64,000 bases of DNA from Thermomicrobiales bacterium. GTDB lineage: Bacteria; Chloroflexota; Chloroflexia; Thermomicrobiales; UBA6265. The stretch is taken from assembly GCA_023957015.1 (NCBI GenBank), contig JAMLHR010000009.1:1-64000 (forward strand), given 5' to 3'. Positions 23,241-28,022 of this stretch are shown piece after piece. Below the pieces are notes generated by a model that did no database searches, was not told the DNA's origin, and saw only the letters and a program-made list of their open reading frames with translations. Made by a program: the position numbers and the translations under genes. The first letter of the stretch is position 1. Each line of letters begins with the position of its first letter.

Positions 23241-25610
23241 ATGAAATTCCTGAATCGTCGTCGTTTTGTGGCTGCTGGTTCGGTGACGGCCGTCAGCGCT
23301 GTGCTGGTTGCCTGTGGTAACGAACCGCTCACCGAGGAAGAGCTGAATCCCACCCAGATTCCGGATGTCCCCGGCGCGCCGCCGACCCTCGCTCCGATTA
23401 CCGATGCTCCTGGAGGCGAAACGGAGGGCTCCGGTAGCGGTGAGACGGGTTCGGGTGAAGCCCCCGAAGCCCTGGTGATTGAGACGCATGATACTTTCAG
23501 CTTCAGTCCAAACGAAGTCGACGTTTCCCCGGGTCAGGTGATCAAGGTTCATAACACCGGTTTTCTCCCCCACGATCTCGTTGTCGATGCGTGGGGTATC
23601 GGCACAGCGCAGCTTAATACCGACGAGGAAGAAGAACTCACGATTCCGGCTGATGCCGAGATCGGCGCCAAGGTCGAATTCCATTGCTCCGTACCCGGTC
23701 ATAAGGAAAGCGGCATGACCGGTACCTTCACGATCGTTGAGGCAGGTGCAGCGGCTCCAACCGAGACCGAGGATGATGCCGCGGAAGCCCCGGCTGGGGA
23801 TGGCGGGACCGCGGAAGCGATCACAATTGAGACGCACGATAACTTTAGCTTCGAACCGAGCGATGTCGAGGTTGCGCCTGGTCAGGTGATCAAGGTTCAC
23901 AACACCGGTTTCCTCCCCCACGATCTCGTTGTCGATGACTGGGGTATCGGCACAGCGCAGCTTAATACCGACGAGGCAGAGGAGATCACGATTCCAGCCG
24001 ATGCCGCGGTTGGCTCGACAGTGGAGTTCCACTGCTCGGTACCGGGTCATAAGGAAAGCGGTATGACCGGTACTTTCACCGTGGTAGAGGCTGGTGCCGC
24101 CGCTCCTCCGGCTGATGAAAGCACGGAAGAGGCCACTGAGGACGAGGCGACTGCCGAAGCCCCCGCGGGTGAGACTCCGGCAGCCGGAAGTGGCGAGCCG
24201 ATCACGATTGAGGCGCTGGATAGCTTCGCCTTCGATCCGAAGGAAGTCGACGTCATGCCGGGGCAGACGATTCACGTAATCAACACCGGCTTCCTGCCAC
24301 ATGATCTGGTGGTTGAGGATTGGGGCGTTGGCACCGAAGAGCTTCAGATGGGCGGCGAAGGCGAGTTCACGATTCCGGCCGATGCAGCCGTTGGCTCGAC
24401 GGTAGAGTTCCACTGCTCGGTACCGGGCCACAAGGAAAGCGGCATGAAGGGTACCTTCACCGTTGTTGGTGGAGCGGCTGAAACCGAGGAAGCTGCGGAG
24501 ACCGAGGCTACAGCCGAAGCACCAGCTGGTGAGACTCCAGCGGCGGTCGGTTCCAGTGAGCCGATCGTGATTGAGGCGCTCGATAGTTTCGCCTTCGATC
24601 CGAAGGAAGTCGACGTCGTTCCGGGGCAGACGATCAAGCTAATCAACACCGGCTTCCTGCCGCATGACCTGGTCGTTGAGGATTGGGGAGTTGGCACCGA
24701 AGAGTTGGGTATCGGTGGTGAAGGTGAGTTCACGATTCCGGCCGATGCCGAAGTTGGCTCAACGGTAGAGTTCCATTGCTCGGTGCCGGGTCATAAGGAA
24801 AGCGGTATGAAGGGTACCTTCACCGTGGTCGCCGGTTCTGCTGATGCTCCCGCTGAGAACGAGGATGCTGGCGAAGCGCCTGTGGGCGATGGTGGCAGTG
24901 CCGAGCCGATCGTGATCGAGGCGCTCGATAGCTTCGCCTTCGAGCCGAAGGAAGTCAACGTCATGCCGGGGCAGACGATCAAGCTGATCAACACCGGTTT
25001 CCTTCCGCACGATCTGGTCGTTGATGATTGGGGCGTTGGCACCGAAGAGTTGGGTATCGGTGGTGAAGGCGAGTTCACGATTCCGGCCGACGCTGAAGTC
25101 GGCTCGACCGTCGATTTCCATTGCTCGGTCCCGGGTCACAAGGAAAGCGGCATGGTCGGCAAGTTCACCGTGGTCGCCGGTGGATCCAACGAGGGCACAG
25201 GTGAGGGCTCACCAGTTGCCGCAGGTACGCCGGTTCCGGCGTCTGTTCACGCGGTCACCGTTGTCGGTACAAAGTGGCAGTTTGAGCCGGCTGAGTTCGA
25301 GATCGCTCCGGGCGGTATCATCACCTTCCAGAACAACACGGGTATGTTGATGGGCCTCTCTTCGGAGGAGTGGGACAAGAACGCATTGCAGCCGATGATC
25401 AAGAGCATCGCCGATGGTGACTCCGCTGAGTTTACGGTGCCGGATGATGCCGAGGTCGGTGCGGAGATCGAGTTCAAGTCCAACCTCAGTGAAGCCGAGA
25501 AGCAGGGCATGGTTGGTAAGATCACGATCGTCGCTGGCGATGGAGGCACACCAGTGGCCACTCGCCGCAGTCGTCGGTCGTTGCTCGCCAGCGTGTTCGC
25601 CGCTCGCTAG
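23241..25610 (+). CDS. lipoprotein with six cupredoxin domains, five with complete blue-copper sites
   Basis: A 789-residue surface protein. The N-terminus has RRRF followed by a hydrophobic stretch and the lipobox LVAC. Six cupredoxin domains begin near residues 77, 193, 320, 441, 556 and 671, joined by acidic, Ala/Glu/Pro-rich linkers. Domains 1-5 each carry GFLPHDLVV (first His) and FHCSVPGHKESGM, giving the Cys, second His and Met of a type 1 copper centre. Domain 6 keeps the fold pattern but has FKSNLSEAEKQGM and no His-Cys-His set. The C-terminus is basic (TRRSRRS). ATG 23241 follows GGGAGG. Likely roles are multi-copper electron transfer at the cell surface or copper storage. A terminator follows. 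Confidence 0.85.
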   Translation: MKFLNRRRFVAAGSVTAVSAVLVACGNEPLTEEELNPTQIPDVPGAPPTLAPITDAPGGETEGSGSGETGSGEAPEALVIETHDTFSFSPNEVDVSPGQVIKVHNTGFLPHDLVVDAWGIGTAQLNTDEEEELTIPADAEIGAKVEFHCSVPGHKESGMTGTFTIVEAGAAAPTETEDDAAEAPAGDGGTAEAITIETHDNFSFEPSDVEVAPGQVIKVHNTGFLPHDLVVDDWGIGTAQLNTDEAEEITIPADAAVGSTVEFHCSVPGHKESGMTGTFTVVEAGAAAPPADESTEEATEDEATAEAPAGETPAAGSGEPITIEALDSFAFDPKEVDVMPGQTIHVINTGFLPHDLVVEDWGVGTEELQMGGEGEFTIPADAAVGSTVEFHCSVPGHKESGMKGTFTVVGGAAETEEAAETEATAEAPAGETPAAVGSSEPIVIEALDSFAFDPKEVDVVPGQTIKLINTGFLPHDLVVEDWGVGTEELGIGGEGEFTIPADAEVGSTVEFHCSVPGHKESGMKGTFTVVAGSADAPAENEDAGEAPVGDGGSAEPIVIEALDSFAFEPKEVNVMPGQTIKLINTGFLPHDLVVDDWGVGTEELGIGGEGEFTIPADAEVGSTVDFHCSVPGHKESGMVGKFTVVAGGSNEGTGEGSPVAAGTPVPASVHAVTVVGTKWQFEPAEFEIAPGGIITFQNNTGMLMGLSSEEWDKNALQPMIKSIADGDSAEFTVPDDAEVGAEIEFKSNLSEAEKQGMVGKITIVAGDGGTPVATRRSRRSLLASVFAAR
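23469..25250 (+). repeat. five tandem in-gene repeats of about 345-380 bp
   Basis: Cupredoxin units start at 23469, 23817, 24198, 24561 and 24906, with the degenerate sixth from 25251. Units 1 and 2 share near-identical DNA over the PHDLVVD segment, as do units 3, 4 and 5 over GFLPHDLVV and the CSVPGHKESGM segment. Unit spacing is 348, 381, 363 and 345 bases; the differences lie in the linkers. Units 1-2 and 3-5 form two subgroups (ETHD versus EALDSFAF), suggesting stepwise duplication. Confidence 0.85.
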
Positions 25611-25635
25611 CCGCTCGGACCAATAGAACCTGAAA

Positions 25636-25669
25636 GAACGCTCCGGGTGTTACGACATCCGGAGCGTTC
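25636..25669 (+). terminator. intrinsic terminator after the cupredoxin gene
   Basis: GAACGCTCCGG pairs with CCGGAGCGTTC, extended inward by GTGT against ACAT, to give about 15 bp closed by a TACG tetraloop. CGTGTTTTCC follows. It lies 25 bases after the lipoprotein stop. Confidence 0.85.
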
Positions 25670-25807
25670 CGTGTTTTCCTGACACGTTTCTGACACCCCT
25701 GTGCTGTACCATGAAGTTCGGAGAAATGGTGATTATGCACGATTGCGGTATCTCACCATCGCAGGCAGACAGCGGGCAAGGTCGCCCAAAGAAAGGTCTC
25801 GTATACG

Positions 25808-27406
25808 ATGTCCCGAACCATCCATGAATCCATCGAATCGTTGGTCCAGGCACTAGAGGGCGTGGTGCGCGTTGCCGATGATCGTGTTGAGATCCTGAAT
25901 GCTGATGTTGTGCGCTCCGATCTGATCGAGCAATTGGCATGGACCAGCACCTTCGGCACGGGTGATGTCCAGGATTCCGCCCGCTGGCTGATCCGCAAGA
26001 TCGCGTTCGCGATGGGTGCCTACCCGGCCTCGATCCAGGATCTCTACATGGCCTCCGCGCGGGGTGAGTATCACAACGTCACCACTCCGGCGATCAATGT
26101 TCGTGGCGATACCGTTGAGTTCGCGGGGACGATTTTCCGGGCCGCCAATGCGACTGGCACCAAGCAGCTCCTGTTTGAGTTGGCGAAGTCCGAGAATGGC
26201 TATACCCAGCAGGCTCCGGCCGAGTTCGCGAGTTCCGTCTTTGCGGCCGCCGTGAAGTATGGCTACGAAGGCCCTGTGATGGTCCAGGGCGATCACTTCC
26301 AGGCGAATCCGAAGAAGTACGCCGCTGATCCCAACGCTGAGATCGAGGCCGTGCGCAAGCACGCCATTGCCGCGCTGGCTGCCGGTTACGGCAATATCGA
26401 TATCGACTGCAGCACGTTGGTCGACTATTCGGTGAGCGATCTGCGTGAGCAGCAGTATCCAAACAGCAAACACACCGCCGAGCTGACCGCTGCCATCCGC
26501 GAGCATCAGCCGGAGGGCATCACCATCTCGGTTGGTGCCGAGATCGGCGAGATCGGTACATCCAACAGCACGGTTGAGGACCTGATCGCCTTCCACGAGC
26601 AGTATGTGGAGGAACTGGCGAAGTACGGTGACAACCTGGATGGCGTGAGTAAGGTCAGCGTTCAAACCGGCACCAGCCACGGCGGTGTTGTCCTTCCGGA
26701 TGGCACGATTGCCGAGGTCGCGGTCGATTTCGACACACTTGGCAAGCTGAGCACCGCCGCCAAGGAACTCGGCATCGGTGGTTCCGTGCAGCACGGTGCC
26801 AGCACCCTGCCGGAGGAAGCGTTCAGCAAGTTCGCCCAGGTGGACGCGGTGGAAGTCCACCTCGCGACGGCCTATCAGAACATGTACCTGGATAGCGAGC
26901 ACTTCCCGTCCGAGTTGCGCGAGCAGATTTACGCCCATCTCTCCGAGGCGCACGCTTCCGAGCGGAAGGAAGGCATGAGCGACGCCCAGTTTTATTACAA
27001 GACGCGTAAGAACTGCTTCGGTCCGTTCAAGCGGGAAATGTGGAGTCTGCCGGACGAGACCAAGGCTGCGATCTACGCCGAGTTGCAGCCGCGCTTCGAT
27101 CTCGTTATGCGCGAACTGAACGTTGCCAACAACGGTGATCTCGCCCTGAAGTACATCAAGCCGGTGGACGTTTACGTCCCGCGCCAGCAGCGTTGGCTGA
27201 GGCCGCCCGGTGGACTCGGGGCTGATCCCGGACTGACAGATTCGACGAAACGCAAACACCGCTCTCATATATGCATGAGGGCGGTGTCGCACTACACCAG
27301 TAGCGTCCTTCATCCCCTACGCGAGGCGAAGGGGATGAATGGGGCGGGCTTAGGTGAGGAGAACCCGCCCAACTCGACCTACAGGTCGAGGGGCGGGTCT
27401 ATTTAA
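25808..27406 (+). CDS. fba: class II fructose-bisphosphate aldolase, C-terminus frameshifted
   Basis: A zinc-dependent aldolase of glycolysis/gluconeogenesis, of the longer family form. Zinc and substrate motifs are MVQGDHFQANP, GAEIGEIG, TGTSHGGVVLPDG, VQHGAST and VEVHLATAYQN. The open frame gives 532 residues, but the last 65 or so are not aldolase-like and run through a hairpin and a palindromic stretch. A one-base shift near 27197-27199 would give a short natural end, EAARWTRG, stopping at 27225 just before the first hairpin. I infer a missing base there, either a mutation or a sequence error. The catalytic part is intact. Confidence 0.88.
   Translation: MSRTIHESIESLVQALEGVVRVADDRVEILNADVVRSDLIEQLAWTSTFGTGDVQDSARWLIRKIAFAMGAYPASIQDLYMASARGEYHNVTTPAINVRGDTVEFAGTIFRAANATGTKQLLFELAKSENGYTQQAPAEFASSVFAAAVKYGYEGPVMVQGDHFQANPKKYAADPNAEIEAVRKHAIAALAAGYGNIDIDCSTLVDYSVSDLREQQYPNSKHTAELTAAIREHQPEGITISVGAEIGEIGTSNSTVEDLIAFHEQYVEELAKYGDNLDGVSKVSVQTGTSHGGVVLPDGTIAEVAVDFDTLGKLSTAAKELGIGGSVQHGASTLPEEAFSKFAQVDAVEVHLATAYQNMYLDSEHFPSELREQIYAHLSEAHASERKEGMSDAQFYYKTRKNCFGPFKREMWSLPDETKAAIYAELQPRFDLVMRELNVANNGDLALKYIKPVDVYVPRQQRWLRPPGGLGADPGLTDSTKRKHRSHICMRAVSHYTSSVLHPLREAKGMNGAGLGEENPPNSTYRSRGGSI
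27256..27287 (+). terminator. hairpin downstream of the inferred fba end
   Basis: ACACCGCTCTCAT pairs with ATGAGGGCGGTGT (13 bp, one T-G wobble) around a 6-base loop. It begins 30 bases after the inferred natural stop at 27225. No T-run follows, so it may instead protect the mRNA 3' end. Confidence 0.6.
27309..27339. other. second hairpin of the fba 3' region
   Basis: TTCATCCCCT and AGGGGATGAA form a perfect 10-bp stem with an 11-base loop. It stands between two other strong hairpins in the 3' region shared with the convergent methyltransferase-like gene. Confidence 0.55.
27363..27398. terminator. long bulged hairpin, convergent terminator
   Basis: ACCCGCCC then CTCGACCT pair with AGGTCGAG then GGGCGGGT, 16 bp with a two-base bulge and a tight loop. 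On the plus strand CTATTT follows. A further GGGCGGG at 27342-27348 could pair with the same CCCGCCC, so two exclusive folds are possible. It lies exactly against the end of the minus-strand gene. Confidence 0.6.
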
Positions 27407-28022
27407 GTGCTGTCACCGACCACGTGGTGCCAATCAACGATGATCGATCCCCGGGACTCCGTCGTCCGAATCGCGGCCACAACTCGCGCTCGGCATCGCG
27501 ATCACCGCGAACCCAGTTTTTCCAGAGCAGTCCCGCTATCATCCGCGCTTCATGCGCGGCATAGTTGATGGTGGTTAGAGACACAGCTCTAAGACCGGAT
27601 TCAGCGCAGAGTGCCCTTAACTCCGCACCGGTATAGTGACGATTCCAACCGGTTGGCAAGGCCGCATCAGGAGGATCTCCTCGTTTACCGATGTCGACCG
27701 CGTACCGGTGCGCATCCATCGCATCCAGCCAGGCGAATAGTCCCGTCTTTGGCACCGTGAAGCGGAGTTCGCCGCCCGGTGCCAGCACGCGACTCAACTC
27801 CGCCAACCAGGCTTCCTCGTCGATCGCCCGGCTCAGGACATCGTCGTGCAGTGTGATGCGCTGGAGGCTGCCAGTTGATACTGGCAGCGACGGTTGATCG
27901 ACATCTGTCCGCCATCGAGCTACCTCCTGATCCTCATTGCGAAACACGACCCAGGGACAGCGTTCTCGGGTTCGTTCAGACGTTGATTCGGAGAGTTCGA
28001 GGTGGGCGGTAAGCGTCGTCAT
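27399..28022 (-). CDS. degenerate class I methyltransferase-like protein
   Basis: A 207-residue protein whose middle (DEEAWLAELSRVLAPGGELRFTVP, quoted in part: LSRVLAPGGELRFTVP) matches the post-motif region of SAM-dependent methyltransferases of the methyltransferase-11 group. The N-terminal glycine-rich SAM-binding motif is not seen; that region reads HLELSESTSERTRERCPW instead. It may be a non-catalytic relative or bind another ligand. A HYTGAELRALCAESGL helix typical of the family follows. Divergent from the next gene with about 65 bases between. Confidence 0.5.
   Translation of the reverse strand: MTTLTAHLELSESTSERTRERCPWVVFRNEDQEVARWRTDVDQPSLPVSTGSLQRITLHDDVLSRAIDEEAWLAELSRVLAPGGELRFTVPKTGLFAWLDAMDAHRYAVDIGKRGDPPDAALPTGWNRHYTGAELRALCAESGLRAVSLTTINYAAHEARMIAGLLWKNWVRGDRDAERELWPRFGRRSPGDRSSLIGTTWSVTALK

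Follow-up and report, generated by a model that had tools for sequence, protein, structure and literature searches.

One open reading frame on the forward strand of the window (the whole stretch of DNA that was analysed, 64,000 nt) encodes a 789-aa protein with six cupredoxin-like repeats, of which five carry complete type 1 copper ligand sets and the sixth, which is best conserved between species, lacks the His and Cys ligands. The reading we prefer, to which we give slightly less than an even chance, is that this array protein is an electron shuttle on a lipid tether that docks through domain 6 (D6). The reading frame spans 23241-25610 (ATG at 23241, stop codon at 25608-25610), and its features, with the hairpin behind it, are as follows.

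23241..23315, + strand: Tat-like signal peptide (NRRRFVA) and lipobox VLVA-C25, residues 1-25, a motif reading only
23346..23396, + strand: anchor-proximal motif NPTQIPDVPGAPPTLAP, residues 36-52, near-identical in all four genus members
23472..23744, + strand: cupredoxin domain 1 (D1), subgroup A, ligands H111, C149, H154 and M159
23820..24092, + strand: cupredoxin domain 2 (D2), subgroup A, ligands H227, C265, H270 and M275
24201..24473, + strand: cupredoxin domain 3 (D3), subgroup B, ligands H354, C392, H397 and M402
24564..24836, + strand: cupredoxin domain 4 (D4), subgroup B, ligands H475, C513, H518 and M523
24909..25181, + strand: cupredoxin domain 5 (D5), subgroup B, ligands H590, C628, H633 and M638
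25254..25538, + strand: domain 6 (D6), predicted plastocyanin fold without His/Cys ligands, strongly conserved across species
25539..25610, + strand: C-terminal tail (23 residues) and stop codon, at the place where the G001 and G002 orthologues have an extra intact cupredoxin domain
25636..25669, + strand: likely intrinsic terminator, a 15-bp stem followed by a T-rich tail; a hairpin of similar form lies behind the stop codon of G001

The N terminus of the array protein, MKFLNRRRFVAAGSVTAVSAVLVAC, resembles a Tat leader and contains the lipobox VLVAC (residues 21-25). The signal peptide and the lipobox are kept in the orthologues, and NRRRF and L-V-A-C-G-N are invariant in those of genomes G001 and G002. 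The protein is thus predicted from these motifs to be a lipid-anchored lipoprotein with a Tat-like leader. Kinship of the leader with that of C39 from the same genome was rejected, C39 being merely a Tat lipoprotein of a different kind. The anchor-proximal motif is conserved far above plain linker and is recognisable in the family member G009. Six repeats of 91-95 aa follow (residues 78-168, 194-284, 321-411, 442-532, 557-647 and 672-766); the linkers between them are 24-36 residues long, with abundant Ala, Glu, Gly, Pro and Thr. The C-terminal tail, TRRSRRSLLASVFAAR, is basic. A hidden out-of-frame seventh domain 3' of the stop codon was not found when the G002 terminal domain was searched by tblastn against 25301-27500; the best match was D6 and the others were at chance level.

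As the preliminary description had claimed, D1-D5 are intact blue-copper domains. FLPHDLVV and CSVPGHKESGM are present in all five, supplying one His and a C-x4-H-x4-M loop each, and the only Cys residues of the chain are the lipobox Cys25 and one ligand Cys per copper domain. The plastocyanin/azurin-type profile PF00127 (Copper-bind) matches five stretches (128.4 bits against a cut-off of 21.2, E 1.5e-37), and each of D1-D5 taken singly exceeds the cut-off with its His/Cys/His/Met ligands complete. The H, C, H and M columns are near-invariant across 48 family domains, the exceptions being the D6 set. Five type 1 copper sites per chain are therefore predicted, one in each of D1-D5, and we infer that they are loaded with copper. 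The two repeat subgroups noticed earlier are also borne out: D1 and D2 share 82% identity and D3, D4 and D5 86-92%, with 66-71% between the subgroups, while D6 is 28-33% identical to the rest.

Auracyanins show the same C-x4-H-x4-M ligand spacing as D1-D5, and auracyanin is a functional mobile carrier between a complex III-type enzyme and its acceptor. In relation to the plastocyanin/azurin-type cupredoxins in general (PF00127, including the auracyanins of Chloroflexota), D1-D5 are complete domains of the same type and D6 shares the fold; however, the members named are single-domain carriers, whereas the array protein has five such domains, a copperless one and a lipid anchor. The comparison with an auracyanin (PDB 6kol) gave E 9.4e-4, a matter of sequence similarity only. 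The plastocyanin equivalog TIGR02656 was exceeded (113.2 bits against 87.85) with a score summed over five stretches; membership was rejected because the loop is C-x4-H-x4-M instead of C-x2-H-x4-M and the protein is no single-domain carrier. Ceruloplasmin and hephaestin (PMC3600357) resemble the array protein in having six cupredoxin-fold domains per chain, some of them without a mononuclear site, but the array protein differs in its long disordered linkers, in having five mononuclear sites instead of three, and in containing no HxH motif anywhere. Since HxH motifs are absent, a trinuclear oxidase centre is not present, and assignment as a multicopper oxidase was rejected.

D6 has the same fold pattern without Cys or His ligands, as initially described. 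At the H/C/H ligand positions it has G/S/A, with the axial Met (M757) kept, and it scores 17.8 bits with PF00127, below the cut-off of 21.2. The AF2 model of D6 reached a pLDDT of 84.1, and a Foldseek search with it placed plastocyanins on top (best match 2gim, E 2.5e-7, TM 0.68), as expected for a cupredoxin fold; the model is supportive and not independent, because its input alignment contained intact cupredoxins. The further idea that D6 had merely lost its ligands did not hold up. Its identity between species is 76-86% with a dN/dS of about 0.1-0.3, compared with an average of 56-64% for the intact N-terminal domains, and this conservation rules out simple decay from a copper domain. A D6 profile searched against 61 genomes of the order gave E values below 1e-60 in three genus members only, with a single hit per genome; weaker matches, from E 1.6e-14 onwards, scored like ordinary cupredoxins and were mostly the intact domains described here. 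Three of the four genus members thus have one D6-type domain per protein, and the other relatives fetched have none. Because conservation is highest in this domain, which is found once per protein and is common to three species, D6 is best described as a maintained module instead of a relic: judged from these alignments, it is a distinct single-copy module under purifying selection. A role of D6 in binding a different metal or ligand (e.g. Cu(I), held by M702, M704, M719 and M757) instead of in metal-free docking appears quite improbable to us; the four Met residues are invariant in three species, but three sequences are all that this invariance comprises, and residues 709-719 are poorly modelled in the full chain. 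A second case of ligand loss was seen in a paralogue of the same genome (C11, L045 6231-7511), a 427-aa frame with two cupredoxin domains, of which the second is intact and the first has lost the Cys, the second His and the Met, SSIPGDREGGL replacing the copper loop.

In a full-chain model from a three-row alignment, D1-D5 reached pLDDT values of about 90-94 and D6 of about 43-79, while the linkers and the N terminus remained below 50, with a pTM of 0.26 for the whole chain. The copper domains are thus predicted to be beads on disordered acidic linkers, with no fixed copper-to-copper wire. The contour lengths of the linkers, 9-13 nm, make a fixed tunnelling wire unlikely, and encounters within the tether are the natural alternative. 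The suggestion of copper centres side by side on the cell surface is therefore retained in part: the five predicted sites and the lipoprotein leader agree with it, whereas a fixed side-by-side relay is disfavoured by the predicted disorder of the linkers and the low whole-chain pTM.

The array locus is internal to a 72.8-kb contig, and in the three other genus genomes an orthologue lies in the same place, between a deacetylase gene and an aldolase-like gene. The array protein itself consists of five intact domains, D6 and a short tail (five predicted copper sites). In the G001 orthologue, a D6-type domain stands behind four intact domains and before a fifth (five sites); in that of G002 it stands behind three and before a fourth (four sites); that of G003 has two intact domains and lacks D6 (two sites). 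Tandem repeats are prone to misassembly and copy number varies here; nevertheless, an assembly artefact, which the preliminary description had named as a refuting possibility, or a neutral repeat expansion without function is highly improbable. No stretch of the coding sequence longer than 37 bp is repeated exactly, making short-read misassembly unlikely, and together with the syntenic arrays in independent genomes this led us to reject an artefact; in addition, the ligands are kept in every copper domain and dN between repeats is low relative to dS. The repeats are thus genuine.

We reconstructed the history of the array from a domain tree built without D6. All four N-terminal domains from G001 group together (99/96), as do all three from G002 (90/88); D1-D5 fall into two groups (97/93 and 98/98). 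The terminal domain of G001 is sister to that of G002 (100/99), and a larger tree places the D6s in a clade of their own (100/100). Constraining the first domains to group cost 116 log-likelihood units (p-AU 0.0002) and constraining the last N-terminal domains 88 units (p-AU 0.0003), so that positional one-to-one orthology of domains across species was rejected. Monophyly of all five intact domains of the array protein was not recovered in the tree and was not rejected (p-AU 0.26). It follows from the tree and these rejections that each lineage independently either multiplied its copper domains or homogenised them through gene conversion. Between repeats of the array protein, synonymous divergence amounts to 0.4-0.7 if both belong to one subgroup and to 0.9-1.3 if they belong to different ones. 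The duplications thus look lineage-specific in the tree but, from these values, not fresh. Of the recent expansion proposed earlier, the lineage-specific part agrees with the tree, whereas a very recent origin conflicts with the synonymous divergence.

The genes around the array gene, a polysaccharide deacetylase and a hydrolase upstream and an aldolase-like gene downstream, are unrelated to it, and no operon partner was found at the locus, which is syntenic in all four genus members. The array gene is probably transcribed alone; a scan for terminators found one site, that listed above, against an average of 1.7 in shuffles, which is not significant by count. A search of a plasmid collection gave no match. 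Possible partners lie elsewhere in the genome. At C10 (L046 3564-6801), genes of a cytochrome b6-type protein, a subunit IV-type protein and a Rieske protein are followed by a cytochrome c-cupredoxin fusion, and at C97 COX1 adjoins a COX2 with CuA and a CxxCH domain. The cytochrome b genes of G005 (L048) precede one for a fusion of cytochrome c with three cupredoxins, and proteins of G016 and G029 contain three cupredoxins each, that of G016 with a CxxCH N-terminal part. Similar cupredoxins are found in relatives of the family as one to three copies fused to cytochrome c, beside cytochrome b/Rieske genes in two inspected genomes. Like the array protein, the fusions of C10 and G005 contain related, extracytoplasmic cupredoxins, one to three in tandem; they differ in their haem-binding CxxCH part and cytochrome b neighbours, the array protein being free of haem motifs and the product of a solitary gene.

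According to the shuttle reading, the chain with its five independent type 1 copper domains would work outside the cytoplasmic membrane, held by its lipid anchor. Electrons would reach these domains from a donor, most plausibly the cytochrome c-cupredoxin arm of the cytochrome b/Rieske complex, and would be handed on, as the domains diffuse within reach of the tether, to an acceptor, for instance an oxidase of the COX2-cytochrome c type. With several copies, more electrons could be held on each anchor and the local concentration might be higher, and D6, which would carry no electrons, may serve as a conserved docking or folding module. This reading is supported by the five complete ligand sets with no spare Cys, by the cytochrome c-cupredoxin fusions near cytochrome b in this genome and in G005, by the COX2 with CuA and CxxCH, by the three-cupredoxin proteins of G016 and G029, and by well-modelled domains on low-pLDDT linkers with D6 the most conserved. 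Against it, the array gene stands singly among unrelated genes and thus has no linked partner, and the predicted copper number varies (2, 4, 5 and 5), a variation that a specific relay does not need. Since the candidate partner domains are themselves acidic (pI 4.1-4.9), as is an unrelated lipoprotein, electrostatic steering can not be argued, and docking of acidic domains to basic cytochromes was dropped as an explanation.

The variation in copy number among species at the same locus, together with five copper-type ligand sets per chain, would also fit a dosage trait, that is, a surface buffer or scavenger whose main task is to store or sequester copper at the membrane, with a copy number that tracks the copper supply. 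We regard this as unlikely, since the full type 1 set in all five domains exceeds the needs of storage, Met- or His-rich copper-storage stretches were not seen in the protein, no copper-homeostasis gene was seen among the neighbouring genes scanned, and similar family domains are fused to cytochrome c. Between the relay and the buffer mentioned in the preliminary description, the family context leans towards electron transfer. Meanwhile, the array might serve a dedicated extracytoplasmic redox enzyme or an external substrate instead of the bc-oxidase chain. The separation of the array gene from respiratory genes and the presence of other cupredoxin fusions in the genome (e.g. one ending a long propeller-like protein) are consistent with this, but such a partner was not identified, and we give the idea only a small chance. 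The stronger form of the shuttle reading, in which a tethered multi-copper shuttle or capacitor replaces the mobile respiratory carrier, the number of copper domains evolves fast through duplications specific to each lineage and the copperless domain is the docking head, seems rather doubtful to us. If the shuttle reading is true, flexibly linked blue-copper arrays would move electrons outside the cytoplasm in a way unlike haem wires or free carriers, and evolution could tune the repeat number. The copperless domain, conserved above the copper domains, offers a testable handle on the docking target.

Further arrays were found in G018 (at least six intact domains) and G013 (at least four), both in frames that end at the contig end. 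A protein of G249 from the same phylum (L077, C66; 1175-aa frame) likewise has at least five cupredoxin domains per chain, but these are amicyanin-like with the short loop C-x2-H-x2-M, and the array is apparently independent. Given these and the three-domain proteins, cupredoxin arrays recur in this group and are not a unique oddity. In the open literature we found nothing directly relevant on tandem cupredoxin arrays, which is weak evidence of novelty, most subscription papers being outside the scope of the search. Single-domain cupredoxins were also observed at L009, L078 and L080, near a protein that ends in the copper motif CSALHLEMQ and is possibly a nitrous oxide reductase.
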